A stretch of 64,000 nucleotides of DNA from Artemia franciscana. Taxonomy: Eukaryota > Arthropoda > Branchiopoda > Anostraca > Artemiidae. The DNA lies in the NCBI RefSeq assembly GCF_032884065.1, contig NC_088883.1:22563637-22627636 (forward strand), given 5' to 3'. A program made the translations under genes and the position numbers. Shown here piece after piece: positions 1 to 64,000 of the stretch. The notes beneath the pieces were generated by a model that made no database searches, was not told the DNA's origin, and saw only the letters and a list, made by a program, of their open reading frames with translations. Position 1 is the first letter of the stretch. Each line of letters begins with the position of its first letter.

Positions 1-808
1 GCTTATTTTTACATAAAAAGACAGTGCAGCAGAACTGGTTTCTTATAATTTTAAAGTTTAAATAAAAAAAAACAAGGGTTCTAAACCTCAAGTTAAATAG
101 AATCTCAGTAAAATTCGCGTATATTTTTTTTGCTCCCCTTTTTATATTCTATTAAAAAAATAGAACCCTCAAAAAATTTTTAATCAATTGCTTCAATTTT
201 TTGCTCATCCTTCACCTAACGAATTTACTGCTCATTGAAGCTGTGCAATTATGTGGCCTCTGCTCCTGACAAAGAACCTCTTCCTGACTCAACATACAAC
301 AAAATTTTTTATTTTATATTTTAATATAAATTTAATCAATAAAATATTGTTTCTTTATATTCTTGCAAACTGCTTGTTGTTCTTAGAGCTAGGGATAGTT
401 CATAGGGACGGAGTACAAGATAGAGAAAATTAAATAAATACATAACTATGTTTATCAAAACAATTTATGAAGAGCACTTACTATACACGAACAACTATTG
501 TATACTTTCAACTTTAAGCATCCCCTTTTAAGAAGGGGATGCCATGAAGGAAAAGTGATATTGTGGTTATGTTTCAAAAACAGTTTCGACAGACCTATTT
601 TGGGCCCACCATTTTATATTTGCGGATTAAAGCTAAACTTAAAAAATCTAGCTAGGACTTTTTTATATATAGAGTGAACCTGATAAAAGTAGGAAAGGGG
701 ATCTTGCTTGTCCAAAAACCCCAATGCCAAGGTTTACTGTATCTATATGCTTACTAATGGCGAAGTAATAATAATCATAAAATAACTAAAATGATTCATT
801 CTTTCGAA
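1..808. other. AT-rich sequence without a recognised gene
   Basis: Apart from the hairpin at 518-542 I see only short A/T runs. The matching regions of copies B (31890-32705) and C (59958-60772) are equally empty. A 101-codon minus-strand frame crosses the unit start in B (31804-32109) and C (59872-60177), but its product is lysine- and phenylalanine-rich low-complexity sequence and I do not accept it as a gene. Confidence 0.6.
518..542. other. Perfect 10-bp hairpin, conserved in three copies
   Basis: GCATCCCCTT and AAGGGGATGC form a perfect 10-bp stem around a 5-base loop. It recurs unchanged at 32414-32438 and 60482-60506. No downstream T-run or gene end gives it an obvious terminator role, and its function is unknown. 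Confidence 0.75.
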
Positions 809-3355
809 TATATTGACCATCGGGTAAAGAATAATTTCAATTGAAAATATATTGCGTATTCATTGAAGAGGCAATGCTACTAGTTGTTTTGGGGAGTTAA
901 ATGAGGGTTGCCCAGCTCATATTAATGGCCTTTTCTGTTTCTTTTTGTGCTGGATTTCTTCATTCAATTTAGTCTGTTTGGTTTAAGATTGTTAACTTAG
1001 AGGATTCGACTTATGCCCGCTCTGGTCTCTAAAATTGTATCTTTTCTTTCGCGAAATGCATCGTTTTCATGCATTAAATTTTTAAATCAAATTAACAGTG
1101 TATACAGTACTTTTGCGTTGACGATAGCTTCTGGTCTATGGATGAGCATCCTAACCCCAAAAAACCTTTGGGGGTTTTCATGAGTATCTAGGCTTGTATG
1201 AGAAGCCTAGAGGAAACTTTTAAGAACCTAATAAAATTATTGAAGAAGAATTTTTATCGTCCTTCAAAAGAACTTTGCTGTAAGGTCGTGGAAATATGGC
1301 ATATATTTTGTGACATTTTACAAAATGTTGAAGATTAGCAAAAAAATATATAAAACGCCTTTTTAAACCGTCGATTGTTGAAAAGACGTTATACTTTTGA
1401 CTGTGGGGGAGACCTGTACTTAACACTTTCGGTCTCTAAAACTCATGAAAATTTGGTTATAATAAATTTTCAGTTGATTGTAAATCGAAAGTAACTCTAG
1501 AACAAAAGAGGTTATAGTATTAAGCATTAATTATTTATAGCATAAGTGCAACAGCATTTTTCATAAGCTTGCTCTTTGGGAAACAAGTTCTTTCTGCTGT
1601 TGTAATTGAAAATACCCTTTATAACAATTTTTTTGCCGATTCGAGATATAAGGCTCAACCCCTTTTCATAGATTGTTGGCAACAGTAGTATTTTTTTAAA
1701 TATAAGAAACATAGGAATTGACTATCCCTTGTTTCTTCACCTACCGTAACGGTGATACTAGTATATCGCTAGTAAGAATTGTGGGTACTCAGAAGAATAT
1801 CCATTGACACCCTGTTATATCTCTAGAAGCCGTATTATTAATCCTTTGGAGGAGTATAAACAGCTTTCTATGAGCTCTGCAGAACACGGACATTCACTTT
1901 TGGGAACAAGCTTTGTGTAAAATTTGCAGAGAAGTATAATTGAGATGGATGGCATTGTGTCCATAGAAGGTATGATATCACCGTGCTTTCTTGCCCAAAA
2001 GGAACAAACCCATTCGAGAATATCTACCGCGTGAATGGATGGTGAAAATATATTTTTGAGGAGATGGGATTAATCAATATTCTTTATAGCTTTACCTCCA
2101 AAGATGAAACCAGGGTGTTGCACGATCTTTGACTGACTAACTGATTTTTGTGTGTGTTCTCTCTGTCTTTGATTTTTGGAAACTGACCCTCTTGACAATA
2201 GATAACTTTTCTGTCTCCACAAGATATACCTATGGGTACCGGGAAACCTAGGTTGTGTCTCCATTTCTAAGGACATTTGTCAGTATCAGTAAAAAAGTAT
2301 AGATAATTTTTTACCTCAAAACAGCGTCGATCTGAAAACACTGTCAATTAGTCCAATCTGTTTTAATGTATTGCACCTTGCATACGGTAAAGCCCTGCTT
2401 GTCCATAAATGTGGTCATGATAAAAGTTGAAAAAAATCAAAAAGAAAGTGTTCTCCACTAATATTTAATATTTGCACCATAATGCATTTTAAATTACATA
2501 AGCCGATTTTTTTTCTGTTGACAAGATTATTACCTGCCCTTTAAATAAAAATGGTTAATGGCCTCTTTTGAATTATATTATTGAAAACAGGAAGTTTTGC
2601 ATAAAAAGCAAAAAGTTCAAACCAAACGAGAACCAAAAAGTAAAATCCAAAAGATTTTGCATAAACTCTTAGTTTGAGCAAAATAATTTTGATAACTCAA
2701 GCAGAAATCCATAAGAGAAGGAAACTTAAAATGAAGAAAAATGAAAAGAGTGAATGAAAGCAAGCTTAGAATGAACGTAAGTTGCCGTAAGTAAGGGTGG
2801 TGATGTCTAGTGCGGGCTAATCAACAAAAAACTTCAAAAATCCTCAGATAAACCGGTAATTTAAGGCTTTATTTTAGCTCTTTGGATGCAAGTTTCGAGT
2901 AGGGACTATAAGAATGATTGATAAAACCCAGCAGATTAAATACGATTTTACGTTTTATTCTGACACAATCTTCCTATATTAGCTGTCTTACAAAACAAAA
3001 TTGAGTCTTCGTCAGTATGGGTATTTACATTGTCTGTGTCAACTAGAATTTCCCTGTGGACATTGAGATTGGCAAAGCCATTTAGCCTACTTTCAGACGT
3101 CACGTTTCTTAGGTATGTCTTGATTCTCCGATGTGTAAAAGGAGCGCTCTGTTGTGCTGGTCGATACAGGTATAGTGATTAAAATATTAAGTAAGATATG
3201 GATGTTCGGAGAGATTGCTTTGCCACAAATATTTAGAAAATCAGTTGCATTGACATGGTGTGCCTTGTTCCGTTAGAGAAATTTTTGCCAAATTTTTCTT
3301 TCCGCCATCAAACGTTTAAGGTGTTGTTTTCCAAATCTTCTTCATAAATTTCGAT
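809..3355. other. Block present only in copy A
   Basis: Copies B and C jump from the base matching 808 directly to the sequence matching about 3356. A coherent hAT transposase relic runs through the right edge of this block into shared sequence, so the block was deleted from the B/C lineage rather than inserted into A. Between 809 and about 2940 I recognise nothing beyond short inverted repeats, for example one near 1155-1178 built from CCCC and GGGG runs. Confidence 0.8.
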
Positions 3356-3605
3356 CAACTTCAAAAATGGCTCTTTCATCTCTTTACTTTCTTCACTATT
3401 CTGTGGATAAGTGTGAAGCAAACAGTGAAACCCTTTTAAAATATTCTTGTGCTTTAAGAGACGTTCTTCTATAAAGTTTTATACTTTCAATCCAGAAGAT
3501 GAATAAGTTAATTCTTTAAAATTATTCTGTGCTTTCGGCTGAGAAATTTCTTCTGTGTATCTGCCTATCTACAATCCTTGTAACACTAATTGTAGTTCCA
3601 TTCAA
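2948..3605 (-). pseudogene. hAT-superfamily transposase relic (C-terminal half)
   Basis: Read on the minus strand, the fragments follow the order of hAT C-terminal regions. First comes a segment with RIVDRQIHRRN. Next is a helix-rich stretch with EERLLKHKNILKGF, then a segment ending IYEEDLENN. The IPVSTSTTERSF motif of the dimerisation region follows, then RRIKTYLRNVTSESRLNGFA and NLNVHREILVD, and a stop at 2948-2950. In-frame stops and frameshifts break it; one frame change lies between the ERSF and RRIKTYLR motifs. The family normally catalyses cut-and-paste transposition, and this copy is dead. No terminal repeats were identified. It could be a domesticated zinc-finger MYM/hAT-like gene, but the frame damage argues against that. 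Confidence 0.78.
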
Positions 3606-5056
3606 TTTGGCCAAATTTCCATTTAATTTGGCCGAAGAAAATAAAATCAGTGAAAAATAGAATGTTAAACTTTATTTTGCCGTGGGGGGGGGGGAAGGTG
3701 TCAGCACGCCATAAGTTGAAGACCTTACGAATCGTGCATGTTGTTTCAATATCTCTGGCGGGGTGTCCATATTGCTGATGGACGGGTTCTCTTTAGTAAC
3801 ACACGTAGTGAGAGCCAATTCAAGTTTTGCTCCACTTTCTTTTTGTAGCTCTTTAATGTTAACAATGCTTGATATAGCAACAGGGCCCTTGACTGATACC
3901 TAGTGCTTTGCTCAATCTTTGACAAAAATTTTTAAGGCCTACTACCGCTCTATCTTGATAGGTCCATAGAACTTGCTTTTTTTTTTTTTTTTTTTTTTTT
4001 TCTTTACCGAACTAAGTATTTATAGTATACATTACAATATAATACTCTTCTGATCTTGTCAAGTGCCTGACAAAAGGCTCTTTAGAAGGGCAGTCCAGTA
4101 GACGTGAACCAAATATACCCTCGTTCAAAATTTGATTCAATCCAAATTTCAATTTTCAACCCATCAACTAACAGTGGTCCCCCAATTACCTAAAAAAAAT
4201 TCACACAATACCAATATATTAGCTATATACAAGTTCATAATTTTTCCTTTTTCGATTTCAAACACCATAATTAGTAGTTGCCCTGAAAAATTAAAAAAGT
4301 ACACCAGCTTTGCCTGAAAAACTTTATTGAAGACACGGCTGAATGTGAAAATTGCCTTTGCTTTTGAAATTTATTCTGCTTTTCAACTGGCTGCAAACTA
4401 CCACGTTTTCTTATATTTTCTCATGCTGTCGATAAATGAGTTTCTTAAATTGAAATTGCTGGAACTCAAATAAGGAGAAATAATATGTAAAAATATTGTA
4501 CAGATATGTAAGTTTCTGAACCGTCTCTATTTGACATTACGGGAGAATAAGGAAACGGAAAAAAAACGAAGCTATCCACAGCAAAAAAGAAAATAATAAT
4601 TTTGCAAAAAAAATCTTATTTAAGCCATGATTTCAATGAGGCTTTTTCAGGAAAAGGCTTCGCGCTTCTGATTTTTATTTATTTTTTTTTTCTTAGCAAC
4701 AGCGGATTTGAAAATTGTTTCCACTCAACCAATTTTGCCTAAGAAAGCTATAATAAAGAAAGGTCAGTACTTGGAATTCTATTTTTTTTTCTTTTGTTGT
4801 CCTGTTGCCTTGCATTGTCTTGCTTCGCCTGCTTGGTCTCTGAACTTATTTAAGAAAACGCTCTAGTATGTTACTTTAAAAATCTAACCCAAAATACTAC
4901 TCGAACCTTATTAGAAACTATATAGGATTAATCAAAATATAGCTCATGCTTTGTATACAAAATATTTTGTTGCCAAACTCCAATTCAGCTCAGGTTCGTT
5001 TTGATGGAAATTGGCAATAGGGCATTGTCAATAGTACTTATCGAATTTACTTGTTA
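3606..5056. other. AT-rich stretch with a long poly-T tract
   Basis: It holds a T25 run at 3977-4001, which is T45 at 33338-33382 in copy B and two T runs split by a C at 61406-61443 in copy C. A minus-strand open stretch at about 3700-3870 (with KELQKESGAKLELALTT) may be an upstream part of the hAT relic, but I cannot place it in the family. Counterparts are 32976-34440 and 61046-62499. Confidence 0.5.
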
Positions 5057-7375
5057 TGGCACTTGGTATTAACCAAGTGACATATAGCTATCGCCAATTC
5101 TGTCGGTCTGTCTTTCTGTTGGTCCCGGTTTTGCTACTTTAGGCACTTTCAGGTAAGCTAGGACGATGAAATTTGGCAAGCGTATCAGGGACCGGACCAG
5201 ATTAAATTAGAAATAGTCGTTTTCCCGATTTGACCATCTGGGGGGGGGGGAGTGGGGGCCGGTTAATTCGCAAAAAATAGAAAAAAAATGAAGTATTTTG
5301 AACTTATGAGTGGGTGATTGGATCTTAATGAAATTTGATGTTTGGAATGATATTGTGTCTCAGAGCTTTTATTTTAAATCCTGACCGGATCTGATGACAT
5401 TGGGGGGAGTTGGAGGGGGGAAACCTTAAGTCCCGGTTTTGCTACTTTAGGCACTTACAGGTAAGCTAGGACGATGAAATTTGGCAAGCGTATCAGGGAC
5501 CGGACCAGATTAAATTAGAAATAGTCGTTTTCCCGGTTTGACCATCTGGGGGGGAGTGGGGGGCCGGTTAATTCGGAAAAATAGAAAAAAATGAAGTATT
5601 TTTAACTTATGAGCGGGTGATTGGATCTTAATGAAATTTGATGTTTGGAATGATATTGTGTCTCAGAGCTCTTGTTTTAAATCCCGACCGGATCAGATGA
5701 CATTGGGGGGAGTTGGAGGGGGGAAACCTAAAACTTGGAAAACACTTAGAGTGGAGGGATCGGGATGAAACATGGTGGGAAAAATAAACACAAGTCCTAG
5801 ATAGATGATTGACATAAACGTAACGGATCCGCTCTCTTTGGGGTAGGTGGGGGGGGGGTTATTTCTGAAAAATTAAAAAAATGAGGTATTTTTAACTTAC
5901 GAACGGGTGATCGGATCTCAATGAAATTTGATATTCAGAAGGATATCGTGGCTCAGAGCTCTTATTTTAAACGCAACCGGATCTGGTGACATTGGGGGGG
6001 GGGAGTTGGGAGGGGGGTTAATTCTGAAAAATTAGAAAAAATGAGGTATTTTTAACTTACGAACGGGTGATTGGATCGCCATGAAATTTGATATTTAGAA
6101 GGATATCGTGTCTCAAAGCTTATTTTAAATCCTGGCCGGATCTGGTGACATTGGGGGAAGTTTAGGGTGGGGAAACCTAAAATGATGGAAAACGCTTAGA
6201 TTGGAGGGATTGGGACGAAACTTGGTTGGAAAAATAAGCAGAAGTCTTGCATACGTGATTTACATAATTGGAACGGATCCGCTCAATTGGGGGGGGGGGG
6301 GGTAATTCTGAAAAATAAGAAAAATGACGTATTTTTAACTTACGAAGGAGTGATCGGATCTTCATGAAACTTCATATGCAGAAGGACCTCGTAACTCAGA
6401 TATCTTAGTTTAAATCTCAACCGGATCAAGCGTAATTGGGGGGGCAGTTGCGGGGACCAGAAATCTTAGAAAATACTTAAAGCGGTGAGATCAGGATGAA
6501 GCTGGATGGGAAGAATAGAAACCTGTCTAAGATACGTGACTGACATTACTCGACCGGATCTGCTCTCTTTGGTGGAATTGGGGGGGGGGGGGTAATTTTG
6601 AAAATTGAGGTATTTGTAACTTACGAAAGGGTGACCAGATCTTAATGAAATTTGATATTTAGAAGGATATTGTGCTTTAAAGCTCTAATTTCAAATTCCG
6701 ACCAGATCCTGTGACATTCGGGGGAGTTGGAGGGGGAAACCGGAATTCTTGGAAAACATGAAAATTGGGGTATTTTGTCTTACGAATAGATGATGGGATC
6801 GTAATGAAATTTGATTTTTAGAAGGAATTCATGTCTCAGAGCTCTTATTTCAAATCCCGACCAGATCTTTTGACATTGGGGGAGTTGGAGGGGGAAATCT
6901 TGGAAAAACAATTGGAGTGGAGGAATCGGGATGAAGCTTGGTGGATAGAATAAACAAATGTCCTTGATACGCGATTGACAGAATCATACTGGATTCGCTC
7001 TCTTTGGGGGAGTTTGGGGGAGGGGTTCAGTGATTTGGCGAGTTCGGTGCTTCTGGACGTGCTAGGGCGATGAAAATTGGTAGGCGTGTCAGGGAGCTGC
7101 ACAATTTGAATTGATAAAGTCGTTTTCCCAGATTCGACCATCTGGGGGGCAAAAGGGAGAGAAAAAACTAGGTATTTATAACTTACGAGTGGGTGATCGG
7201 ATCTTAATGAATTTTGATATTTAGAAGGACTTTGTGACTCAGAGCTCTTATTTTAAATCTTGACCTGCATTAAGCCTCTTATTTTCCTTTTTAAATCAAT
7301 CTATTGATTCATAGAATTTTGTTAGAGCTCATACCATATCATCTCTTGGCTCTTCTCGCCTCGTCACAAGTGCCA
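5057..7375 (+). mobile_element. TA-flanked element with internal ~300-bp G-rich tandem units (full array)
   Basis: The left end is TGGCACTTGGTATTAACCAA, containing the hairpin CACTTGGT/ACCAAGTG around ATTA. The right end is CAAGTGCCA, the inverse of the first nine bases. Both ends abut TA, as expected of a TA target duplication (Tc1/mariner-like insertion). Inside are about eight diverged units. Each has GAGGTATTTTTAACTTACGA, a GGATCTTAATGAAATTTGAT-type segment, CTCAGAGCTCTTATTTTAAA and a G-run of 5-15 bases. No transposase frame is visible, so it is non-autonomous if mobile. Long frames across it are by-products of the units. Confidence 0.7.
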
Positions 7376-9110
7376 TATGAGCTCTTAGCTCTTGTTTCTT
7401 CTTCCTTTAGCTTTTATTGTAAACATATTAATGTCGATGTTGTATATTAATTAGTATGTTTACAGACTGTCATTACTTAACTAAGGCTTTTTCAAATAAT
7501 CAAACTTTTTTAAATTCAGATGTCTTCAACCATCTAGGCTATGGTAGTGTTAAGATAGAAAAAATTGGGTGTGGCAAGTGTTGTAAAATTGCTGTAAAAA
7601 AAATGTGGCAAGATAAGATGTTTATTTAAAAAAAAATACTATCACAAGCCCCAAAGGGCCAAACGTGGTGATTGATATTGGATACAATATGGTGCTTGTC
7701 GGAAAATATAGGGTAAAATTGATGTTTTAGAGTTGTCTTAAAAGTCTTCTATAGCTGCCCTCGTTTTTTATGGCTTTTTAAAACATCGAAGGAAAACAAT
7801 TATGCACAATTTGATCTAGTTACAGCACATTTCCAAATACAGCTTTCCCTCCCAGTCTCTGTGTGACTCAAGCTTGTGCGTTGAAATTGATTTTGGAAGT
7901 GGCTATACCGTTTGCGCTGTGGGAGGGGAATAAAATAAAAGCTCTCTCCCTGGAAAATGATAGGAAGCGACTTAAAAATCTACTTTGTTTTATTCCTTCT
8001 ACCCTTAGATCTTTTCCTGTTGTTTTTTTTCGAACGCCTAAGGCAAAAAAATAAAATGCACAATTTGATTCGTTTGAGGTACACCCACAAATTCTGGGTT
8101 TTTCCCCAGCCTTTGTCTACCTCAGGTATACCACAGGAAGGTGTCACTTTAACTTTGAGGCAGGGTGTTCCTTTTGACAGAAGAAAGGGATTCAGACAGA
8201 AGCCCCATCCCCCCAAGTTATCACCCCACAGGCTGAGCCTATGCGTTCCTGGGGATAGGGCTGTAAGTTGTGCCTTGGGGGCATGTTAGGTTTCTATGGA
8301 ATAGAATTTACGGAATTTTATGGTAAAAACTTCAGATTAGGCTTATTAGATTTAATTTTTGCTCGTTTTGAGCTTGACTCAGCTATTTATTAAATTAAAA
8401 AAAACAGGTTTTTGTAACTGCAAGTAAGGAGCGACATTTAAACGATCAAAAATTATTCCATGTATGAAAGGGGTTGTCCCCTTCTCAACACCTGGTTCTT
8501 TGCGCTAAAGTTTGACTCTTTCTTACAACTCTTTTGAGTTGTAAGAGAAATTTGGCTTAATGTTCGCTTCACAAACACCCAGTATCAGTACCTTTTTTGT
8601 TTTTTATCATGAATAAAATTAAATTTAATGCATTGTGGAAATCTTCTCTTCTAAACTAGAGCCGTTCAATAGAAAAACTACCAATAAAGTCTTACTATCA
8701 CATAGGGTGTGCCATTGTTACCGAAAGCACCGCCCAACCTTCTCCCTTGGAATGTGTACGCGTACCAGCTTACATCTTGGTCTTGTGGGATAAAGACCAA
8801 CTACAGATCAAATTGGAACCTTTAGAGTCGTCCAACGATAAAACTAAACATTCAACCCATACCTGGTTAACGAGGGAGACCTGGCCATAGCTGTAATGAA
8901 AGTAATGAAAAGCTTAATTTAATGATGCTCCTTGTAACGAGGAGCCAAATTTCTTTAGAATATTTAAGGCTTAAAGCAATTTGTTGACAATTTTCTGTTT
9001 CAGTCTATCTTCACCCTATTAGGTTTTTGGGAGCGCTTCATGATTTTATTGTGGGGGGTTACTACAATGAGACAATTGAAGTCTCTACAGTGTATGTATT
9101 TTAAAAAAGT
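7376..9110. other. Repeat-rich sequence, no gene recognised
   Basis: A moderately repetitive segment at about 7850-8290 is near-identical to 35360-35780 in copy B. Two overlapping open stretches there have no recognisable domain and no splice logic, so I treat them as chance frames. At 8430-8515 lies half of the fold-back repeat family (ending in the motif GCTAAAGTTTGA) that is complete at 9783-9952. Confidence 0.5.
8521..8546. other. 11-bp perfect inverted repeat at an indel junction
   Basis: TCTTACAACTC and GAGTTGTAAGA flank a TTTT loop. In copy B this point is occupied by about 1.2 kb of other DNA (36018-37231). The left arm is ordinary shared sequence and the right arm is its exact inverse, so the right arm looks like fold-back-primed filler made when the 1.2 kb was deleted from copy A. 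Confidence 0.7.
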
Positions 9111-9127
9111 AGTGGGCTTGAAACAGT

Positions 9128-9334
9128 TTGGCTCTCAAAGGTGACCTGGGTTTACCAAAATTGTGCCATAAGAGCATTATCAAGATGATCAAATTTTTAT
9201 TACAGATATTACATTTGCCTGATAATCGTCTAGTGAAGGCGGCTCACAATAACTTGTTGAAATCTTCTAAAAAGGCGAGGTGGCCAAAACAGATTAAAGC
9301 CACGCTGGAAGAAGCTGGCTTCTCATGGGCATGA
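9128..9334 (+). pseudogene. Non-LTR retrotransposon (LINE) ORF2 tail fragment
   Basis: The 68 codons ending in TGA read GDLGLPKLCHKSIIKMIKFL and then HLPDNRLVKAAH, ending KATLEEAGFSW. This matches the region after the reverse transcriptase in LINE ORF2 proteins, where a short RGDLGLxxLYHK-type motif and HLPDNRL precede the stop. Upstream, 9050-9127 carries matching coding traces (SLQCMYFKKVVGLKQFG) in another frame, so the fragment is frameshifted. No RT catalytic motif or poly-A tail is visible. I cannot assign a clade. Confidence 0.65.
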
Positions 9335-9782
9335 AATAATGACCAGGGTCCCCATTGCAAGCCTAATGATTTCCTTGGCATTTTGGATTTGGTTCTTTAC
9401 CACCAGAAGATTAAAGTAGCTTATGATTTTATAACCAGATTAAAGTAATGTATTGAGAGCAGTTTTAGTTGATACTGAACCTACCGTGGAGCGTGCTAAG
9501 GTGTTGGTTGTAGGTGTTTGTAAATTTTATGCCATAGCCTAGGGCACACTTGGATTCTTGTGATGAAAATGGTCCGGGAGGCTGGTCTGCTTGCGCCCTT
9601 TGTTGGGAATATGGGAGAGACGTAGAGTATTTTATGAGTAATTATACAAGTTTGGAGAATTTACGGAATTGCTTTTTTTTGGGGGGGGGATAGGGTGCAT
9701 CATGGCTCCCATTTATCTTGATGACCTTTTTTAAGGAGCTAATTATTATGGTGGAAAGTTTTGTAAAGAATGATTTAGAGGG

Positions 9783-9952
9783 GGCTACCCCTCCTCAATA
9801 CCCTGCTCTTTACGCCGAAGTTTGATTTTTTGCTCCAATTACTTAAGAATGACTCCTGAAACACAAGATCTGTTTAATTAGAACAATTAACTTTTTAAAA
9901 ATTCAAAAACTTTAGCATAAATAGCGAGGGAGTGAGGTGGGGCGACCCCTCG
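9783..9952. repeat. Fold-back (inverted-arm) repeat, ~170 bp
   Basis: The left arm (CTACCCCTCCTCAATACC then TACGCCGAAGTTTGA) is the imperfect inverse of the right arm (AAACTTTAGCATAAATAGCG then GGGGCGACCCCT). The arms are about 43 bp around an 80-bp AT-rich loop. It resembles a MITE or fold-back element. Related copies lie at 38471-38640 and 36259-36425, and half-copies at 8430-8515 and 29815-29915. Confidence 0.65.
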
Positions 9953-10405
9953 TAATCGTAGCAATTTCTGTTCGTTTTAAGTTGTAATGTTACTCCTTGA
10001 TTTCAGTTGAAAGGAAAAACTGTTTTTCATTTTATTGTTTTTAAGTCCGCATCCCTCAATGACGATTTGAAGACATTTATATCGCAAGGCCATTGGTGAA
10101 ATTTTAGGCGCTTGATAAAATAGATTCTTAAGATTTGAGTCATATGTGTAACTGCTGAGAATATCTTGTTTTCATAAGAAAGTATTAAGCAGAACCAGCC
10201 TTTGGGGGTGACAAGTGGTATAACCCCACTAGGCCTGCTCATAATACCCCATTGACGCCACTGCTCCAAAAACCCCACTGGGGACCCGCGCTAATAAACT
10301 TGTTACGAATTATAATCACAAATTGATTTTGTGACTTCACGAGGGGCCTCACAGAAAAACAGTATAATCTAAGGCTGGAGTATCCAAATATGCCATCCCT
10401 TTTTA

Positions 10406-13991: not shown

Positions 13992-14022
<31 letters not shown>

Positions 14023-15150: not shown

Positions 15151-15179
15151 GGCCATATGGCTCTAATGTTTCATCATTT

Positions 15180-19430: not shown

Positions 19431-19439
19431 TTCACACTT

Positions 19440-27105: not shown

Positions 27106-27121
27106 TGTAGTGATAATTTAC

Positions 27122-27718: not shown

Positions 27719-27777
27719 GTAAGTAATTGTTTACTTAATGAATTGCTTACGTTTGCTTTTTAACTTCTTAATTCATC

Positions 27778-41324: not shown

Positions 41325-41358
<34 letters not shown>

Positions 41359-44710: not shown

Positions 44711-44769
<59 letters not shown>

Positions 44770-50178: not shown

Positions 50179-50179
50179 T

Positions 50180-50995
50180 TCACACTTAATGGAAATTGTA
50201 GGAAAACAGTTTATATTTGAGTGGCCTAGAAAAAAAAGGTTTGAATTGTCTTTGGACTAAAGAAATTAGCATATCTTCAGTTTCCTGATTCCACACTTCC
50301 AAATCCTTTTATAAGTTTTCTCTGGAACTCTTTCCATATTGGTCATCTTTACGAACTTTTGAAAAAGTTAACTAAAGTTTAACTTTAATGCTTACTCACG
50401 TAAAGGTTTAAGGAAGGCTAACGAAGCAACTTTTAGAGCTTTGCAGACAACTTTACAAACTTTACGGACGTCATCTAAGCCATCCTTAAGGCTTTCTATT
50501 ATCCCGTTTCATTTTAATCATTTAAAAACAGCAACAAAAGAAATATGGTGGGAGGGTAGGCAGTACTTTATTTTTCTATTTCAATCAAGTGTGGTAAGTT
50601 GAACGTTTGTATCTTCTTGTAGTTTAGATTTTAGTATTTCTTTTAAGGGAAAGATGGGAAAATTATGAGATGGTTAATTTAAATGGCTGTAAATAGACAA
50701 CTGTGGTGTCACTACAGCCAATTGTTATTTAGAAAATGGTATTAAAACTTAGTTGGATGTTAGTATATAAGTACTCCTGCTCGAAGTGAACACAACATTG
50801 TATTGTCAATACTTTTATTATTGTAAAATGATTTATTAATTCATTCCTTGGTGACTATTAATTCAATAAATAAATAGGCTAATAGGTTGTCAGAATGTTA
50901 GTTTTTCTCTGAGTTGGCCCAACTGTAAACAAGAAGCAAGAGTAGGAAGTTTACCATTACATTAGCTTTTCTAAAATTTGTATTGGGTTCCTTAT
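50180..50995. other. AT-rich spacer (copy B)
   Basis: It matches 19432-20266, minus one AAACAGCAAC repeat unit. No gene was recognised. Confidence 0.5.
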
Positions 50996-51035
50996 GCTAG
51001 CCATATAATATGCTAGCCACATAACCTTATGCCAC
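50996..51035. other. Deletion scar with templated filler (copy B)
   Basis: Copy A positions 20267-21533 are replaced by a 30-bp filler at 51001-51030. Its pieces (ATGCTAGCC, GCCACATAA, CCTTAT) repeat sequence found immediately on either side. This is the signature of polymerase-theta-type end joining. Confidence 0.75.
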
Positions 51036-53886
51036 ATAATGGTTTAAAGATGTAGCAGAATAAAAAAAAAAACAAAATTAGAGTAGGATTAGGACTATCA
51101 GTAGTCCTCCTTATTCAATTTGATTTGTATTTAGTGGTAAAATAATGGAAAAATTTAAAAATCACAATTTAAAAATTGTGACTAACTCCAATCTGAAAGC
51201 TTCAGCATTTTTTTGTCAATAAAGTGAAAGTTTATTTTTTCAATGTTGACTTTACAGAAATCATAAACTGCAGTTGCTGTCTTATTTGATTTGCATCTGA
51301 AAGTCAAAAGGCTGGCTTTTTAAAAAAATTCTCTTAACAGTTCCCCTCAAGCCATCACATATTGATTTCCTGTGGCTTGTTGCAAAGAATGAATGTTTGG
51401 CTTTCATACCAAAGTCTTCATGATGGTTTGTTGGGTTTTTGAAACTATTTCTATTTTTGTATTGACCAGTACAGCCGTAAGTGAAATAATGAACTTGGTT
51501 TATTTTGGGATGATTTTCTTTCAGCCATTTCGAAATTTCTTTTAGTATGTAATTCACAAAACAAGTGTCATGTTGTATATCATCACTTATGTCTTTCATT
51601 TCAAACAGTTTGTGGTAACAAACTGTAGTAAGGAGTGACCTGGCTCAATAGTAACTAAAACTCTAAAAAATGGAATTTTGATGCCTATCACTACATCAAA
51701 AGAATCACCTTTTAATGCTGATTTTGAATATATTCAAGTAGAGTTCAACTGGATGAATTGTGTTCTAGTGACAACTTTGGTTCTGTGATAACTCTCTCTC
51801 AGGTTCTGCTCTATTTCAGCTTTGGCATGCTAATTGCTTGATTAGGACAGTTAAGACACCAATGCTAGGTTAAAGACACCAAAGTTTATATATGAATGAA
51901 GTACACATATGTCTGTTTGTTTCCTGTGACCATACATTAAAACAGCTAAAGAAAAAAAGATTGAAACATTGGACTTTGGTACAACTATATTGAAACCATG
52001 TAAATGGTTACAAACAAATATATATTGAAAAATATCATAGAAAAGAAGTGTCATATAAGGTGTGAAAATTCCACAAAACAGAAAGAAGTCCTTGCAAGAT
52101 GCAAGCAAGGCCATATCCAAAGGGTAAGTCCGCTTCCCCCCCCCCCCCCCCCCTCAAAATGTTTGTTCGACTCGTAAAAACGTAAAAAATTGAAAATAAA
52201 AATTTTTTTAGTGCATTTTTTGAAGTTTTTGCATATCTTGATTATATAATCATGCATTGGCGATGGCTGTTGTCTGGGCTGAGTTGTCTCACCTACCAAA
52301 GTGCCGAACTTGGTAACACCAACAATCAATTTGTTGCAGCCAAAATAGGGCTTTGCCTAAAAGATACTAAAACCAACCAGTCCATTTTGGTGACCTTATC
52401 CAGAGGTTTGGCAAAATGCTGCTGTCTGACATCTGGATAACATCATTCGTTCTGTGATAACTCTCCACTTCTGTTTCAGTGATAACTTTGGAACTTATTT
52501 TGAATGGTGTAAGAATAATTTTCACTGAAATCCATTATTACAATTGCAGTATTCAAAGGCAGATCTTCTTTCAGTTTTTTGAATGTTTTAGACTGTGATT
52601 TTGTAATATATGAATGTGGGATTAGGTTTTCTACTGATTTGCTCAGTAAAGAAATAAAGCTTTCAATGCTGATTGATTGCTTAACTATTTCTGTCCTGTG
52701 AGTATTAACCATTTGGCTTATAATTATTTCTTCTTCTAAATCATAATCTTCACTCAATTTTGCAGTTAAATATTCAATCAGGGCATCATCAGATGGACAG
52801 TTGTCACAATGGCATAGTATACACTCATTGTTTTCAACATTACAAATCAACATCTTGATCAAATCTTTGTAACTTTCTTCAATTTTTACAACATCTAGTA
52901 ACAATTTCACATTCTGGTGTATGCTGCATACACATACTGTATGGGTACCTGCTGACCCAGCAAGGACATACTGCTTTGGTCTTATATTGCAAAATTTTGG
53001 GAATCCTATATTCAAGTTGGGGCATTCCCATATAAAAGAAGAGTAAAGCTCTCTCAAATTACTGAGAATAAGTCTTTTGCATGTAAATATTTTTTTAATG
53101 CTCACTTTATCTTTTGCTCTGGGTATAACTCTTGAATTCTCATCACTTTGGTAAAAGTCTGTCACAAGTTTAACTGTGTTTTTGGAGAGTGTTACCTTTT
53201 TTAGCGTCAGGGATAGCTAGGATACCTTTTTCTTTTTTAAGTTTTCTTGCTTGTTCTACCATATATTTGGTCACCTGAAATTCTGTTGCTACTTTTTTCT
53301 GCCATTTCTTTGAAAAGGCCCACGAGCTTATCAAAATCTTCTGCTTTTTTGATAAAATTTCTTTTTTCTTCTGACATTTCAATGTCTTAATCTAGAGCTT
53401 TCAAGATTTTTTTTTCTTTTCTTGCATTTGTTTGTGAAAGGGAGACATTTCTAGATTCAAATGAATCCAATTCAATCAGTAGTTCATCATCAGATTCATT
53501 TTCATTGATTTTAGTTTTTTCTTCACAGAAGTTTTGACATGAAGGGCATCTCTTTAGTCCAGGTTTAATAGAAATATTTTTTTCACACAATTGTTTTGAA
53601 AAACTTAAATGATACACTTCTTAGTGACTTTTTTATTTGCTTTTTGTGTTTTTTTAATGAATATGCATACTGTTTGATATTTTTCAAACACATTGAGAAA
53701 GTAGTAGCTATGATGGGAACAAACATTTTTAAATTCAATTAAATTGATTCCAGATCCAAGTTGAATTAATTATTTTTCTTCCTTGGTTAATTCTGATACA
53801 GATTGTAATTTTTTGGAAGGTGTTTAAGTTGTCGGAAAACAGTCTGATTGTTTAAATAGTCCAATCCTTCAAGCTTGAGGATTTGT
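51031..53886 (-). pseudogene. DDE-type transposase relic, copy B
   Basis: It has the same parts as 21430-24375: the zinc-ribbon piece at 53617-53387, the middle piece at 53382-53170, the MDFSENY piece at 53165-52476, the same insert at about 52470-51610, and the core at 51599-51282 with Tyr in FTYGCTGQYKN. A one-base difference keeps the zinc-ribbon frame open a few codons longer, and one extra Glu codon lies in the SEDYDLEE run. The C-terminal tail is gone because the 1267-bp deletion ends at 51031. Confidence 0.7.
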
Positions 53887-54104
53887 CATTTTGATTTCCG
53901 CCTACCCCATTTTAAAACTTCAATTTACTTTCAAACCAAATGTTTCAAATTGCGTATTCTTTTAGTTGGTCGGTAATTTTGTTACTCATAAATAATGTTG
54001 AATATCTTTCAAATATGTGAAAAAGCCATGTATCTTTTTTGTTTATCTGTTAGCCTATGTATCTAGGAGTATGTAAAAAAAAAAAAAATATGAACACTCT
54101 ACCA

Positions 54105-55177
54105 GGTCTGAGACCTGAGATATTTTATATTTAAGGAAATTTTATATTTAGAAGGATCTTGTTCTTCAGAGCTCTTATTTTAAATCTCTAGTGACATTGG
54201 GGGAGTTGGAGGGGGAAACTAGAAATCTTGGAAAACGTAAAAATTGAGGTATCTTATGCATGGATGATCGGATCTTAATGAAACTTGATATATAAAAAGA
54301 TCCTATGTCTCATACGTTCTATTTTCAATTAGAATGGGATCCAGGGACATAGGGGGCTGGAGGGGGAAAACAGAAATCTTGGAAACCAGAAATCTAGGAA
54401 AACGCTTAGAGTGGAGAGATCGGGATGAAACTTGATAAGAAGAATAATCACAAGTTCTAGTTACGTATATTGACATAACTGAACGGATTCAGTCTCTTGG
54501 GGGGAGTTTGGGGGGATATGTTAATTTGGAAAAAAATAGAAAAATTGTGGTATTTTCAACTTAAGATCTGTTGACCTGATTTTAAGGAAATTTTATATTT
54601 AGAGGGAACTCATGTCTCAGAGCTCTTATTTTGAATCCCGACCAGGTTTGGTGACACTGGAGGGAATTGGAGAGGGAAACCGAAATCTTGGAGAATGCTT
54701 AGATCGGAGAGATTGGGATGAAACGTAATGGATAGAATAAGCAAATGTTGTAGATATATTACTGACATAACCGGACTGAATCCGCTCTCTTTGAGGGAGT
54801 TGGGGGAGTCCAGTGCTTTGGCGAGTTTGGTGCTTCTGGTCGTGCTAGGATGGTCAAAATTGGTAGGTGAGTCAGGGACCCGTACAAATTGTCTTGATAA
54901 AGCTGTTTCTCCCGATTCGACCGTTTGAGGGAGGGGGGGGGCTGAAGGGAGAGGTAAATTTTAGAAAAAATGAGGTATTTTTAACATACCAGTGGGGGAT
55001 CGGATCTTGATGAATTTAGATATTTAAGAGGTTGTTGTGTCTCAGAGCTCTTATTTTGAATCCCGACCGCCATTAAGCCTCTGATTTTACTTTTAAATCA
55101 ATCTGTTGATTCTTAAAATTTTGTTAAAGCTTATACCATATGAGCTCTTGGCTCTTCCGACCTTGTCACAAGTGCAA
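54105..55177 (+). mobile_element. G-rich tandem-unit element, left-truncated, copy B
   Basis: It is the counterpart of 24590-25668. The right end here reads CAAGTGCAA, a single change from the consensus. Confidence 0.6.
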
Positions 55178-57161
55178 TATGAGCTCTTAGCTCTTGTTTC
55201 AAAACAAGTGTTTAATATTAAAAATACAGGTATATTTGAATCGTGAAATATACATATATTTCTGGGAAGGGGCTAGGTTGGAAGGCTACCCTCATTCCAT
55301 ATGTACCTGAATTCCAAGTGAAATGTATGAATGTTGTCTGAATCAAAGATATCAGACAACATATTCCTAAGCTGTGTGATGATGTAAACAAATGCTCCTA
55401 AGCTGTGTGATGATATTGTGTCTGCATTTTGTAATTCTTTTTTCTTACCTAAATTTTATCTTTTCAGGACCCATTTTGGGGCCAGTACCCAAAGCATGGT
55501 ACTATGGTATTTCTTGGGTTCGTCTGCAGGCATGTTTTGTATAATGTAGCACATTAGGTTTCTAATTAACACATTAATGTAGCACATTAGGTTTCTATTA
55601 GGTTTAATTCTATTAGGTATTCTATTAGGTTATCAATTAGGTTTCTCAATAGTTTATGGTTTTAGATAGTGATATTGAGTTATGGAGTGTTCTTGGTACG
55701 GAAAAATATTCCCTTGAATTTTTCCTTTTTTTCCTCATTTTTTGGGCTAAAAAAACTGAATGTTCGAAGAGATCACCTAGTCGACGACGCACTAGCAATT
55801 GTAAGTAAAGACAGTTTACTATCAATATACGCAAGACCTAACTCAAATGCTTTTACCTATAATTTGGTTTCACAAAAATTCTGATTATCTATCTAAGACT
55901 TCCAATAGAAATGGATAATTTCAGATTTTTAAGTCATAGACAGAGACAGCTTATGCTTAGGCACTCTTAAAGTGTACGTACAGCTGCTGACTTTAAAGTA
56001 AGAGTACTGACAAACCTGTGGGTTATTTGGGTGGTGCCCTCCCTGCAGGTATATCTTTGAACCTTTTGATCATTCTAAGGGAAGTGGCCAATTCAAACCT
56101 TTGATTTTGTGCAGTAGAGGGTTGCTGTGTCCCAGTAACAAAAAGGGTACTGTAGGAGGGCTTCTGCTTTTTTAGTACTTTTGGCTGTTAAAACATTAAG
56201 AGTATCTTCAATTTCATTGGCGAGTATTTCACACCTTATATGACAGTTCTTTTCTATGATATTTTTCAATATATATTTGTTTTTTACTAATTACACGGTT
56301 TCAATATAGTTGTACCAAAGTCCAACGTTTCAATCTTTTTTTCTTTAGCTATTTTAATGTTTGGTCACAAGAAACAAAGAGACATATGTGTACTTCATTC
56401 ATATACAAACTTTGGTGTCTTTAACCTAGCATTGGTGTCTTAACTGTCCTAATCAAGCAATTAGCATGCCAGAGCTGAAATAGAGCAGAACCAGAGAGAG
56501 AGTTGTCACACAACCAAAGTTGTCACTAGAACACAATTCATCCAGTTGAACTCTACTTAAATATATTCAAAATCAGCATTAAAAGGTGATTCTTTTGATG
56601 TAGTGATATTTAAATGTAGTGATAATTTACATATTGTACCATGAGAGATTTATAGAACATAAGTTATATAAAAGACATGATTATAAAGTTGTTAATACAC
56701 TAAAATAATCATAGAAAGGCATCAGTCTGATTGATTATAAATGGGAATTATTTAAATTTTATTGGTATCATGGCTAAAGAGATGGCTGAAAACTAGTAGA
56801 GAACAAGCCATGCACATATTGGGCTAAATTTGATTCCCAATCCTCTGAATTATCTGGGTTGTAGCAGTAGCTAGCAACATAGTAAGAGGCAATCAGGCAA
56901 TTCATGCCAAGTTCCTGCCTGGGATCTGGGTCGTGTCCTAAAGTTTTTAAAAGCTACTCGATTTCTTTGCTTTTTGAATATGGGTATGAAAAATCTTAAT
57001 CTTAAGACGGTATTCATTACTGCCATAGCATCAGGTCGTCGAAGGACTGCATTATTCCATTAGTTCTAGACATTCAAGGTAGACCTTGAATGTCTAGGAA
57101 TGTGTAGAACTGCATTATATTGATTAAACTTTATTAGCTGATGCATGTTTTTAATTCGCAG
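55178..57161. other. Spacer and intron end before the Glu-rich exon (copy B)
   Basis: It matches 25669-27640, then switches to the block 2 sequence. The region 56634-57161 is a chimera: up to about 56916 it carries block 1 variants, and from 57033 block 2 variants. It includes the inverted-repeat arm at 56221-56614. Confidence 0.75.
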
Positions 57162-57396
57162 GCGAAGTGAAAAAGAGGAGGAGGAGGTGGCAGAAGAGGA
57201 AGAGGAGGTAGAAGATGAGGAGGAGACAGAAGATGAGGAGCAGGAAGATGAGAAGGCAGAAGAGGAAGATGAGGAGGAGGAGGTAGATGGGGAACAGGAA
57301 GATGGGGAGGAGGAGGAGGATATTCAAGCGGAAAGAACAGGTTTATTTTGGAAAATGATATATAAATTGCTCTTCAGATATTTACGCTTTGTTTAA
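57162..57396 (+). CDS. Glutamate-rich exon of an unidentified gene, long form (copy B)
   Basis: The exon follows the TTCGCAG acceptor with one base completing a codon. It encodes about 58 residues that are almost entirely Glu/Asp with a few Arg and Lys, from RSEKEEEEV to DIQAERTG. It then either splices at ACAG|GTTTAT (57343) or runs on to a stop at 57394-57396 through a basic, hydrophobic tail (WKMIYKLLFRYLRF). An ATG at 57145 lies inside the intron and is not the start. Acidic low-complexity stretches occur in many nuclear and membrane proteins, so function cannot be inferred. Confidence 0.5.
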
Positions 57397-58045
57397 GATA
57401 CAATCCTAGCCCATTATATGAAAATGAGAATTGATTAATTCAGGAAAAAGTTATACGGTACAGAAACATAAAAATGAGGATGATTCTGTACTTTCCTTTG
57501 GATATGGGTGTAGAATAGTATAGGGCGATAATTTGATTGAACGATATATTGATGTTATTGCTTTCAACATTTCTAATAACATTTTTGCTCAGTTTAATTT
57601 TAGAGTTTGGCAAAAATAAATAACAAAATTTGTAATTAAAGAGTATTTTGCATCTTTTTTCCAATTTTGAATAAAATGAAAAAGACTTCCATTTCCTGAA
57701 TGAACATTACAAAAACCCTGATTTGGAATTAGTCGGGTTCAGGATAAAGAAAAATAAGTTACTGGCTATTTTTGGCTATTTAAATATGCAACATGTCAAT
57801 ATTTTCCCCTGAGAATCGGTTCAGCCTCCCAGAAATTAAGGAAAGAATTTTTTTTGTTCAACTGAAAGCAAGGAGCAACATTAAAACTTAAAAGAACATA
57901 AATTTTCCCGTATATGAAGGGGATAGCCCCTCCTCAAACCTCGCTCTTCACGCCAAAGTTTATTTTGTATATCATGACTCTTATTAACCTGCTCATGTGT
58001 TTCAGGTATTGTGTTTAAATAATTGGCACACAAGAGTTGTGTGCT

Positions 58046-59290
58046 CATCAACTATCATTGTCTGACTGATAATGTGCCTTCACACAGTAAAAAAATACGA
58101 GTAAGGAATCTCTCAAAGACTTAAAGTTTTAATAATGGTCCTAAAATGGGGTCAAAAAACAAAATAAAAAATGAGGCTTGGATCACAAAAGTTGAAATAC
58201 CCATTATATTCTATCCTAGTTGCTTAATTAATGACCATCATTGCAGTGATATATCTAAGGAATAAGAAATATGATATCTTGTATGTGGGTAGGGATGCAG
58301 CATTGTATTTTGTGGTGGACAGTGGGTCATTCCTTGTCAAGTCAATGAGGTCATGACACCCACCTCTTTAGATTTTGATGAAACTGGGCTCAATAATTTT
58401 ATTTGCAATCCTATTGATAAATACCAAATTTTATTTCTCTATCTCTTAGTTTTTTTTTCTACAAATTTCTTAATTTTCCTCATTTATGCAATTTTAGGCC
58501 TTGGATTTGTGACTTGCAATGTAACTTGTAGCTTAAAAAATAATATCTTGAAAACTATTAAAAGCTGGCAGCAGGTTCTGGAGGGTGAAGAAATAGAATT
58601 TCAGCATCTTCTTCTTCATGAAACACAGTTTTAACAAGTCCAAAGTACCACTTTCCATTGTATTTTGCAGCCACATAATGGTTTAAAGATGTAGCAGAAT
58701 AAAAAAAAAACAACATTAGAGTGGGATTAGGACTATCAGTAGTCCTCCTTATTCAATTTGATTTGTATTTAGTGGTTTGAAATAATGGAAAAATTTAAAA
58801 ATCACGATTTAAAAATTGTGACTAACTCCAATCTGAAAGCTTCAGCATTTTTTTTTCAATAAAGTGAAAGTTTATTTTTTCAGTGTTGACTTTACAAAAA
58901 TCATAAACTGCAGTCGGTGTCTTATTTGATTTGCATCTGAAAGTTAAAAGGCTGGCTTTTTAAAAAAATTCTCTTAACAGTTCCCCTCAAGCCAACACAT
59001 ATTGATTTCCTGTGGCTTGTTGCAAAAAATGAATGTTTGGCTTTCATACCAAAGTCTTCATGATGGTTTGTTAGGTTTTTGAAACTATTTCTATTTTTGT
59101 ATTGACCAGCACAGCCGTAAGTGAAATAATGAACTTGGTTTATTTTGGGATGATTTTCTTTCAGCCATTTCGAAATTTCTTTTTGTATGTAATTCACAAA
59201 ACAAGTGTCATGTTGTATATCATCACTTATGAAGCAATGGCTGGAAGTTAAAAGTTTATCATCCTTTTCAAACAGTTTGTGGTAAATTTG
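58046..59290 (-). pseudogene. Second fragment of the same DDE transposon, C-terminal half (copy B)
   Basis: It is the counterpart of 29991-31220 with the core at 59197-58922. One base is missing near 58506, which changes the frame in the non-core part. Confidence 0.7.
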
Positions 59291-59349
59291 ATTTCAAAGG
59301 ATTTCAATAAAAGGGGTACCAGAATTGATAATAAGTAAAATACGCTTAG

Positions 59350-59406
<57 letters not shown>

Positions 59407-60771
59407 ATAATATATTAGTTCTTCATCACTTTTTCGATGGTTTTATCTACGTGGGGCTCTTAGAAAATGTAAATTTTTTAAATCACACCTTATCTACCTA
59501 TGAAAGTTTTTGCCCAGAAAATTTCTTTTCCGCCAAAAACTAATCCATTCTACCCCCGCCCCTCCTTAGGTAGTGCTCATTTTCACATTTAGTATTTATC
59601 TTGTATTGACTAATTCAGTTTTAAGGAACACATTTGTATCTGTGCTTTTCCTATATCACAAAATGTTCCAGGAAAGTCTAAAAGGATTTGTTAATAGCAA
59701 GCATAATTACATGTGAAGAAAAAAGGTCTTGACCAGACATTACAACCATCTTGAGGTTTTCGCTCTTGTAATGTATTTAGCCAGTCTTCAAAATTTATCT
59801 TTTTATAAATTTTTTAGTTCGGAAAAACATATTGTCTATTGTCTGCAAATGATTGACTTTTCTTTTCTTTTCTAGATAATGAAGTAGGTGGGCAGTAAAT
59901 TACGGAACTCTCTGTATAAGCCTGTTCTCTGTTGCATTCGTCCTTTTGTGTATAGACGCTTATTTTTACATAAAAAGACAGTGCAGCAGAACTGGTTTCT
60001 TAAAATTTTAAAGTTTAAATAAAAAAAAACAAGGGTTCTAAACCTCAAGTTAAATAGAATCTCAGTAAAATTCGCGTATATTTTTTTTTTGCTCCCCTTT
60101 TTATATTTTACTAAAAAAAATAGAACCCTCAAAAAATTTCTAATCAATTTTGCTTCAATTTTTTGCTCATCCTTCACCTAACGAATTTACTGCTCATTGA
60201 AGCTGTGCAATTATGTGGCCTCTGCTCCTGACAAAGAACCTCTTCCTGACTCAACATACAACAACATTATTTTATTTTATATTTTAATATAAATTCAATC
60301 AATAAAATATTGTTTCTTTGTATTCTTGCAAACTGCTTGTTGTTCTTAGAGCTAGGGATAGTTCATAGGGACGGAGTACAAGGTAGAGAAAATTAAAATA
60401 AATACATAACTATGTTTATCAAAACAATATATGAAGAGCACTTACTATACACGAACAACTATTGTATACTTTCAACTTTAAGCATCCCCTTTTAAGAAGG
60501 GGATGCCATGAAGGAAAAGTGATATTGTGGTTATGTTTCAAAAACAGTTTCGACAGACCTATTTTGGGCCCACCATTTTATATTTGCGGATTAATGCTAA
60601 ACTTAAAAAATGTAGCTAGGACTTTTTTATATATAGAGTGAACCTGATAAAAGTAGGAAAGGGGATCTTGCTTGTCCAAAAACCCCAATGCCAAGGTTTA
60701 CTGTATCTATATGCTTACTAATGGCGAAGTAATAATCATAAAATGACTAAAATGATTCATTCTTTCGAAAA
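59291..60771. other. AT-rich junction of copies B and C
   Basis: It contains the (TA)n tract and the conserved hairpin at 60482-60506, and no recognisable gene. It matches 31221-32704, so the unit boundary itself carries no special sequence; 59958 is simply where the window's first base recurs. Confidence 0.6.
59351..59403. repeat. (TA)n microsatellite, longer allele (copy B)
   Basis: About 26 TA units at the position matching 31299-31335. Confidence 0.95.
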
Positions 60772-61045
60772 ATGGCTCTCGGAAAACTTCAAAAATGGCT
60801 CTCATCTCTTTACTTTCTTCACTATTCTGTGGATAAGTGTGAAGCAAACAGTGAAACCCTTTTAAAATATTCTTGTGCTTTAAGAGACGTTCTTCTATAA
60901 AGTTTTATACTTTCAATCCAGAAGATGAATAAGTTAATTCTTTAAAATTGTTCTGTGCTTTCGGCTGAGACATTTCTTCTGTGTATCTGCCTGTCTACAA
61001 TCCTTGTAAAACTAATTGTAGTTCCATTCAATTTGGCCAAATTTC
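60772..61045 (-). pseudogene. hAT relic remnant, copy C
   Basis: It is the same truncated hAT remnant, with the same deletion scar, as in copy B. Confidence 0.65.
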
Positions 61046-61410
61046 CATTCAATTTGGCCGAAGAAAATAAAATCAGTGAAAAATAGAATGTTAAACTTTA
61101 TTTTGCCGTGGGGGGAGGGAAGGTGTCAGCACGCCATAAGTTGAACACCTTACGAATCGTGCATGTTGTTTCAATATCTCTGGTGGGGTGTCCATATTGC
61201 TGATGGACGGGTTCTCTTTAGTAACAAACGTAGTGAGAGCCAATTCAAGTTTTGTTCCACTTTCTTTTTGTAGCTCTTTAATGTTAACAATGTTTGATAT
61301 AGCAACAGGGCCCTTGACTGATACCTAGTGCTTTGCTCAATCTTTGACAAAATTTTTTAAGGCCTACTACCGCTCTATCTTGATAGGTCCATAGAACTTG
61401 CTTGCTTTTT

Positions 61411-61442
<32 letters not shown>

Positions 61443-62499
61443 TCTTTACCGAACTAAGTATTTATAGTATACATTACAATATAATACTCTTCTGATCTTG
61501 TCAAGTGCCTGACAAAAGGTTCTTTAGAAGGGCAGTCCAGTAGACGTGAACCAAATATACCCTCGTTCAAAATTTGATTCAATCCAAATTTCAATTTTCA
61601 ACCCATCAACTAACAGTGGTCCCCCAATTACCTAAAAAAAATTCACATAATACCAATCTATTAGCTATATACAAGTTCATAATTTTTCCTTTTTCGATTT
61701 CAAACACCATAATTAGTAGTTGCCCTGAAAAATTAAAAAAGTACACCAGCTTTGCCTGAAAAACTTTATTGAAGACACGGCTGAATGTGAAAATTGCCTT
61801 TGCTTTTGAAATTTATTCTGCTTTTCAACTGGCTGCAAACTACCACGTTTTCTTATATTTTCTCATGCTGTCGATAAATGAGTTTCTTAAATTGAAATTG
61901 CTGGAACTCAAATAAGGAGAAATAATATGTAAAAATATTGTACAGATATGTAAGTTTCTGAACCGTCTCTATTTGACATTACGGGAGAATAAGGACACGG
62001 AAAAAAAACGAAGCTATCCACAGCAAAAAAGAAAATAATAATTTTGCAAAAAAAATCTTATTTGAGCCATGATTTCAATGAGGCTTTTTCAGGAAAAGAC
62101 TTCGCGCTTCTGATTTTTATTTTTTATTTTTTCTTAGCAACTAAGCGGATTTGAAAATTGTTTCCACTCAACCAATTTTGCCTAAGAAAGCTATAATAAA
62201 GAAAGGTCAGTACTTGGAATTCTATTTTTTTTTCTTTTGTTGTCCTGTTGCCTTGCATTGTCTTGCTTTGCCTGCTTTGTCTCCGAACTTATTTAAGAAA
62301 ACGCTCTAGTATGTTACTTCAAAAATCTAACCCAAAATACTACTCGAACCTTATTAGAAACTATATAGGATTAATCAAAATATAGCTTATGCTTTGTATA
62401 CAAAATATTTTGTTGCCAAACCCCAATTCAGCTCAGGTTCGTTTTGATGGAAATTGGCATTAGGGCATTGTCAATAGTCCTTATCGAATTTACTTGTTA

Positions 62500-64000
62500 T
62501 GGCACTTGGTATTAACCAAATGACATATAGCAATCGCCAATTCTGTCGGTCTGTCTGTCTGTCGGTCCCGGTTTTGCTACTTTAGGCACTTTCAGGTAAG
62601 CTAGGACGATGAAATTCGGCAAGTGTATCAGGGACCGGACCAGATTAAATTAGAAGTAGTCTTTTTTCCGATTTGACCATCTGGGGGGGGGGGAGTGGGG
62701 GCCGGTTAATTCGCAAAAATAGAAAAAATGAAGTATTTTTAACTTATGAGTGGGTGATTGGATCTGAATTAAATTTTATGTTTGGAATGATATTGTGTCT
62801 CAAAGCTTTTATTTTAAATCCTGACTGGATCTGATGAGATTGGGGGGAGTTGGAGGGGGGAAACCTTAAGTCCCAGTTTTGCTACTTTAGGCACTTCCAG
62901 GTAAGCTAGGACGATGAAATTTGGCAAGCGTATCAGGGACCAGACCATATTAAATTAGAAATAGTCGTTTTCCCGATTTGACCATCTGGGGGGGAGTGGG
63001 GGGTCGGTTAATTCGGAAAAAAATAGAAAAAAATGAAGTATTTTTAACTTATGAGCGGGTGATTGGATCTTAATGAAATTTGATGTTTGGAATGATATTG
63101 TGTCTCAGAGCTCTTGTTTTAAATCCCGACCGGATCAGATGACATTGGGGGGAGTTGGAGGGGGGAAACCTAAAACTTGGAAAACACTTAGAGTGGAGGG
63201 ATCGGGATGAAACATGGTGGGGAAAATAAACACAAGTCCTAGATAGATGATTGACATAAACGGAATGGATCCGCTCTCTTTGGGGTAGTAGGGGGGGGGG
63301 TATTTCTGAAAAATTAAAAAAATGAGGTATTTTTAACTTACGAACGGGTGATCGGATCTCAATGAAATTTGATATTTAGAAGGATATCGTGTCTTAGAGC
63401 TCTTATTTTAAATCCCGACCGGATCTGGTGACGGGGGCGGGGAGTTGGGAGGGGGAAACCTAAAACTTGGAAAACACTTAGAGTGGAGGGATCGGGATGA
63501 AACATGGTGGGAAAAATAAACACAAGTCCTAGATAGATGATTGGCATAAACGGAACGGATCTGCTCTCTTTGGGGTAGTTGGGAGGGGGGTATTTCCGAA
63601 AAATTAAAAAAATGAGGTATTTTTAACTTACGAACGGGTGATCGGATCTCAGTGAAATTTGATATTTAGAAGGATATCGTGGCTCAGAGCTCTTATTTTA
63701 AACGCAACCGGATCTGGTGACATTGGGGGGGGGGAGTTTGGAGGGGGAAACCTAAAACTTGGAAAACACTTAGAATGGAGGGATCGGGATGAAACTTGGT
63801 GGGAAAAAAACACGAATCCTAGATACATGATTGACATAACCAGAACGGATCCGCTCTCTTTGGGGTAGTTGGGGGGGGGGGGGTAATTCTGAAAAATTAG
63901 AAAAAATGAGGTATTTTTAACTTACGAACGGGTGATTGGATCTCCATGACATTTGATATTTAGAAGGATATCGTGTCTCAAAGCTTATTTTAAATCCTGG
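62500..64000 (+). mobile_element. TA-flanked G-rich tandem-unit element, copy C (runs off the window)
   Basis: The left end TGGCACTTGGTATTAACCAA is preceded by TA. At least five units follow, with the unit-to-unit order resembling 5057-6120 of copy A but with an extra unit near 63420-63720. The right end lies outside the window. Frames at 63359-63868 come from the repeats. Confidence 0.7.

Follow-up and report, generated by a model that had tools for sequence, protein, structure and literature searches.

The window analysed here is a stretch of 64,000 nucleotides of the Artemia franciscana genome (contig NC_088883.1, designated C21; positions 22563637–22627636), and it lies in an array of two alternating modules: a block E of approximately 10–16 kb, and a host segment H, which comprises part of intron 1 and exons 2 and 3 of a GPx7/8-like gene together with the sequence behind them. 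The window was analysed together with the adjoining 100 kb to its left and right (264 kb in total; negative coordinates denote positions left of the window), and the genome searched was the 1.27-Gb assembly of 6468 contigs. The 264 kb around the array contain zero N, and hence no assembly gap.

Self-alignment of the 264 kb established, flanks included, four E blocks and three H segments, in the order E-H-E-H-E-H-E and in one orientation. A preliminary description of the window had recognized three copies of one unit (A, B and C), starting at or before position 1, at 31890 and at 59958. The sequences at these three points are indeed homologous: in the window self-comparison, 1–808 matches 31890–32701 at 97.4% and 59958–60769 at 97.3%. 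However, the homology extends 691 bases left of the window (−691 to 808 aligns with 31231–32701 and 59283–60769), and position 1 is merely the window edge, so that the phase of the unit is arbitrary. The chain of matches between A and B covers 25.6 kb at 98.4%, and matches of such length among A, B and C are far beyond chance. The large insertions and deletions reported between the copies are present in the alignments. An older unit, Z, lies directly upstream of A and is approximately 92% identical to the younger ones (Z–A, 92.3%; Z–B, 92.7%).

The homology of C to B stops at B 41759 (C 72581), after which C continues with non-H sequence, and B and Z begin to match the intron of the parent GPx locus at 41760 and −29681, respectively; E and H are thus separate modules. 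We therefore rejected the view that C is a third unit cut short: C matches B no further than the border of E with H, and it consists of the right-hand E only. The parent locus itself is situated on the same scaffold, at C21:14.29–14.30 Mb, a distance of 8 Mb. Homologous direct repeats bound the duplicated segment on either side and also separate the copies, which is the arrangement looked for under non-allelic homologous recombination (NAHR).

All of the modules are read on the plus strand. The block before unit A, E_A, occupies 1–11969, is E-like leftward to about −3.8 kb, and has lost its right end in a deletion. H_A follows at 11970–31230; its GPx exon 2 has been lost through a 1.6-kb deletion at 11966–11969, and exon 3 lies at 13299–13595. 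E_B spans 31231–41759. H_B (41760–59282) starts in GPx intron 1, where the parent-locus homology starts, and contains exon 2 at 42077–42331 and exon 3 at 44018–44314. E_C, the right-hand flanking block, fills 59283–64000 and runs on past the window to 72581. Every E in the window contains a satellite with a repeat of approximately 300 bases, in a long form in E_A (5122–7397) and in E_C (62565–64000, running to about 65.3 kb) and in a shortened form in E_B (34506–34901), as the preliminary description had recognized in noting a long first array common to A and C. It had also correctly described a 2.5-kb loss common to B and C: self-alignment and the genome search give 2548 bases (A 809–3356) that are present in E_A and missing from E_B and E_C. 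Since 26 genome places besides the window hold the whole 3-kb probe taken from the left part of E (1–3000), the simplest account of this difference is that B and C have undergone a deletion. In the comparison of B with Z, Z carries 3.2 kb (−29048 to −25844) that is absent from B at 42393–42399; because the parent locus, like Z, continues into this stretch, B has probably lost it.

The divergence between the copies was previously put at 0.5–1% overall, but uniform divergence had to be rejected, as the values range widely from block to block. Substitutions between A and B amount to 0.3–1.1% in five blocks between 8.5 and 31.9 kb of A and to 1.4–2.9% in three blocks left of 8.5 kb, with 0.8–1.6% at 7825–8532, to the right of the satellite. 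The left parts of E_B and E_C differ by 0.5–0.7%, and E_A-left differs from both by 1.4–1.8%; the A/B sequence from 8.5 kb on and the pair E_B-left/E_C-left are thus about equally young. To the right of the satellite, B and C differ by 2.8–3.7%, rising to 5.6–7.9% further right. The youngest pair, taken over six blocks that include E_B-left versus E_C-left, differs at 135 of 22405 sites (0.60%), with a transition/transversion ratio of 1.33 and 32 small insertions or deletions, and on these values we rejected read or sequencing error as the source of the A/B differences.

Diagnostic sites were counted in two blocks to the left of the satellite, where the derived state was polarized by seven dispersed E copies, and in one block to the right, where there was no outgroup. 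On the left, B and C share five derived substitutions (three in 805 sites and two in 1095), and neither A and B nor A and C share any. On the right, the sites at which a single copy differs number 20 for C, six for A and two for B. B therefore groups with C to the left of the satellite and with A to the right of it, and E_B, the repeat between the youngest copies, is a hybrid, as expected of NAHR: its left part is like E_C and its right part like E_A.

The switch falls within the satellite. In B the array passes from its first monomer directly into its last, and B 34647–34765 matches the first and last monomers of the A satellite alike (91.6% to A first, 86.6% to A last, and 86.7% to C first). 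The first and last monomers of A are 82.4% alike, and C first and A last agree at 82.3% over 113 bases. A single switch point within the satellite explains, for A, B and C, the shared features named in the preliminary description, so that a mosaic produced by gene conversion between the copies, instead of by one crossover, is very unlikely. Gene conversion or a mixing of alleles had been thought to be implied; one exchange suffices for these three copies, although further exchange did take place in the wider family, where the relationships on the E side and on the H side conflict.

Low-copy repeats and segmental duplications grow through NAHR, and ordinary repeat-mediated growth of this kind is the best reading of the mechanism here. 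The H copies sit between E copies, and misaligned E copies would recombine and so add units. In the youngest step, which would have given rise to A and B, the satellite of the E to the left of H would have paired with that of the E to the right of H. The crossover would have left the hybrid, shortened satellite of E_B (34506–34901) as its scar, with the 2548-base deletion in E_B inherited from the C side; A and C would have retained long satellites because they were the outer partners of the exchange. Beyond the anatomy, the relationships and the satellite switch described above, which are features of the assembled sequence itself, we infer that the exchange took place in the germ line and not in the assembler.

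Judged from the sequence, the window is very probably a true head-to-tail tandem segmental duplication that arose when repeats crossed over unequally, and it contains a broken piece of a peroxidase (GPx) gene. The array as a whole is almost certainly real: it is supported by the older additional copies (the fourth E and the third H), by what is, on its coordinates, another head-to-tail array on contig C12, and by the lack of any gap in 264 kb. The preliminary description had left the choice between a real array and joined haplotypes. That all copies are joined haplotypes, with no tandem array, is exceedingly improbable; it has in its favour only the general possibility raised there, and it is contradicted by the anatomy, as three H and four E at one locus exceed the number of haplotypes unless the A/B step is taken alone. 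Joined haplotypes thus fail to account for the whole array and come into question solely for that step, which we regard as probably a true duplication.

For the A/B step, the competing explanation is a false heterotype duplication, in which Z, one A/B unit and C would be real, and A and B would be two alleles of that unit, misjoined in series through the satellite. We consider this unlikely. In its favour, A and B are each other's closest relatives (the youngest pair differs by 0.60%), the next best copy outside being 98% identical, and no further H copy of at least 99% identity was seen among the 40 of 14032 candidates scored, as would be expected if both alleles were present here. The switch point is located in a tandem satellite, where misjoins are likely, and a misjoin would leave nearly the same trace. 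On the other hand, the two monomers that an assembler would need to confuse, C first and A last, share only the 82.3% given above, and close head-to-tail pairs, known from the assembly sequence alone, recur elsewhere in the family, as described below. Alleles, for their part, could show the value of 0.60% found for the youngest pair: it falls within the range of heterozygosity, which is 0.22–0.95% in three vertebrates (PMC9516828) and 1.14–2.3% in two corals (PMC10236652).

The window unit appears to belong to a segmental-duplication family with several arrays and loci. The left part of E is the part whose dispersal the 26 places establish, and copies of the unit lie on C12, C19 (29.74 Mb) and other contigs. 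C12 carries, at 11.55–11.73 Mb, a head-to-tail series of H, in which one unit is 97% and three are 93% like A, as judged from coordinates and three 3.3-kb pieces. On C457, two copies of GPx exon 2 lie 33 kb apart and differ by 0.49%; of the 10000 bases read from the interval, 4819 are satellite. E-left also occurs as two other pairs of copies in direct orientation, 36–40 kb apart, at C437:6747 and 46862 and at C12:15500753 and 15536788; these may mark other E-flanked tandem duplications.

Several of the observations count against the explanation by tandem growth, as do the heterozygosity values and the location of the switch. Copies on C339, C457 and C472 differ by 0.33–0.97% from a related locus at C21:21.15 Mb; such near-identity, which also favours the misjoined-allele explanation of A and B, indicates that some uncollapsed alleles may remain in the assembly. 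On the E side, B is nearest to the C21:21.15/C472 group (1.7–2.1%), yet on the GPx side it is nearest to the C12/Z group (3.8–4.2%), and C is 5.9–8.0% from the C21:21.15, C472, C12 and Z copies on the E side. Because these relationships disagree, exchanges besides the one at the B satellite have taken place, and the history across the arrays is not simple. Furthermore, Z, A and B/C vary less in E-left (about 0.9–1.8%) than in E-right (3–8% for Z versus A/B versus C); this contrast is unexplained by one crossover per unit and may point to additional exchanges or to E being of mixed origin.

A further, quite doubtful possibility is that E and H form one large mobile or self-spreading unit, in which E, more than 10 kb long and with an internal satellite, would carry the adjoining host segment between chromosomes. 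Such a unit might have spread, for example, via circular DNA or rolling-circle copying, and might have seeded head-to-tail arrays on C21, C12 and perhaps C19, as well as on several smaller contigs, with satellite crossover then making the arrays grow or shrink. Helitron ends for E, looked for by eye, were unsupported; the CTGG after the right end of E in B is parent sequence and is absent in C.

The GPx piece is most likely a passenger of these duplications and not a working enzyme. A translated alignment showed that the active-site Cys of exon 2 is missing in all 10 full derived copies, including that of B. With a human exon-1 query, which is distant and so provides weak evidence, no exon 1 was detected across the 264 kb, and the stretch of the parent locus to the left of the junction has no counterpart in the array beyond a weak match. 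Neither the active site nor the exon 1 of a functional GPx7/8 cluster was thus recovered, and on present evidence no working gene is being multiplied. Exon 3 is open in Z, A and B, with KDEL at its end, and the Ka/Ks ratio (nonsynonymous to synonymous substitutions) of the GPx exons is 0.34–0.58, on at most 13 differences.

Other features were observed in and around the array. Inverted arms enclose it, at −84651 to −57212 and 119082 to 164000, with 23.5 kb aligned at 89.9%; this alignment includes an outlying 1.1-kb piece at −46 kb/97 kb, and the right-hand arm extends to the limit of the 264 kb. A 382-base inverted pair, about 96% alike, is present in H_A (22189–22568 and 26718–27099) and again in H_B (51686–52067 and 56227–56608). 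A direct repeat in A (27115–27642 and 28660–29197, 94.6% alike) has a single counterpart in B (56624–57246), so that the 1.5-kb difference between A and B at this place is probably a deletion in B, or else a duplication in A, that arose between direct repeats. H_Z contains an open stretch of 423 codons (−21744 to −20476), largely in 1.5 kb without counterpart in A and B, which, from its motif, presumably resembles a long interspersed nuclear element (LINE) reverse transcriptase. On the minus strand, open reading frames (ORFs) of B at 51282–51644, 52476–53216 and 58922–59293 have counterparts in A at 21785–22147, 22969–23706 and 30870–31241; from the motif QYKN...FFATSH they presumably resemble a multi-exon, transposon-like animal gene. 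The three on the B side, the only ones of these scanned, gave no Pfam match at 0.001. Of all seven ORFs scanned, six had no Pfam match and the seventh was a GPx exon. ARAGORN, run with the bacterial code, found no tRNA genes, and no Rfam family reached its gathering score.

The array resembles low-copy repeats, of which LCR22 with FAM230 (PMC6162681) is an example, in its units of tens of kb, direct orientation and flanking homologous repeats, in the gene fragment that it carries and in having copies on several chromosomes; it differs in that the youngest exchange point lies inside the satellite of the flanking block. With the false heterotype duplications described in PMC9516828 it shares adjacent copies of allele-like divergence, but here the sequence runs through without N, the copies number more than two, one unit is older and another series exists elsewhere. 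Coral tandemly duplicated genes (PMC10236652) likewise lie in tandem in an animal genome where alleles might be mistaken for duplicates, and the coral pairs were validated by reads spanning both genes; in contrast to them, the active site is missing from the present gene piece, and no exon 1 was detected. This case shows how far sequence alone separates tandem growth from the joining of alleles, by way of the modules, the hybrid repeat and the presence of the unit elsewhere, and the B satellite (33.5–36 kb) is the single spot on which the question of array versus misjoin turns for A and B. With at least 10 copies of exon 2 that lack the active-site Cys, counts of GPx genes in this genome could be inflated.
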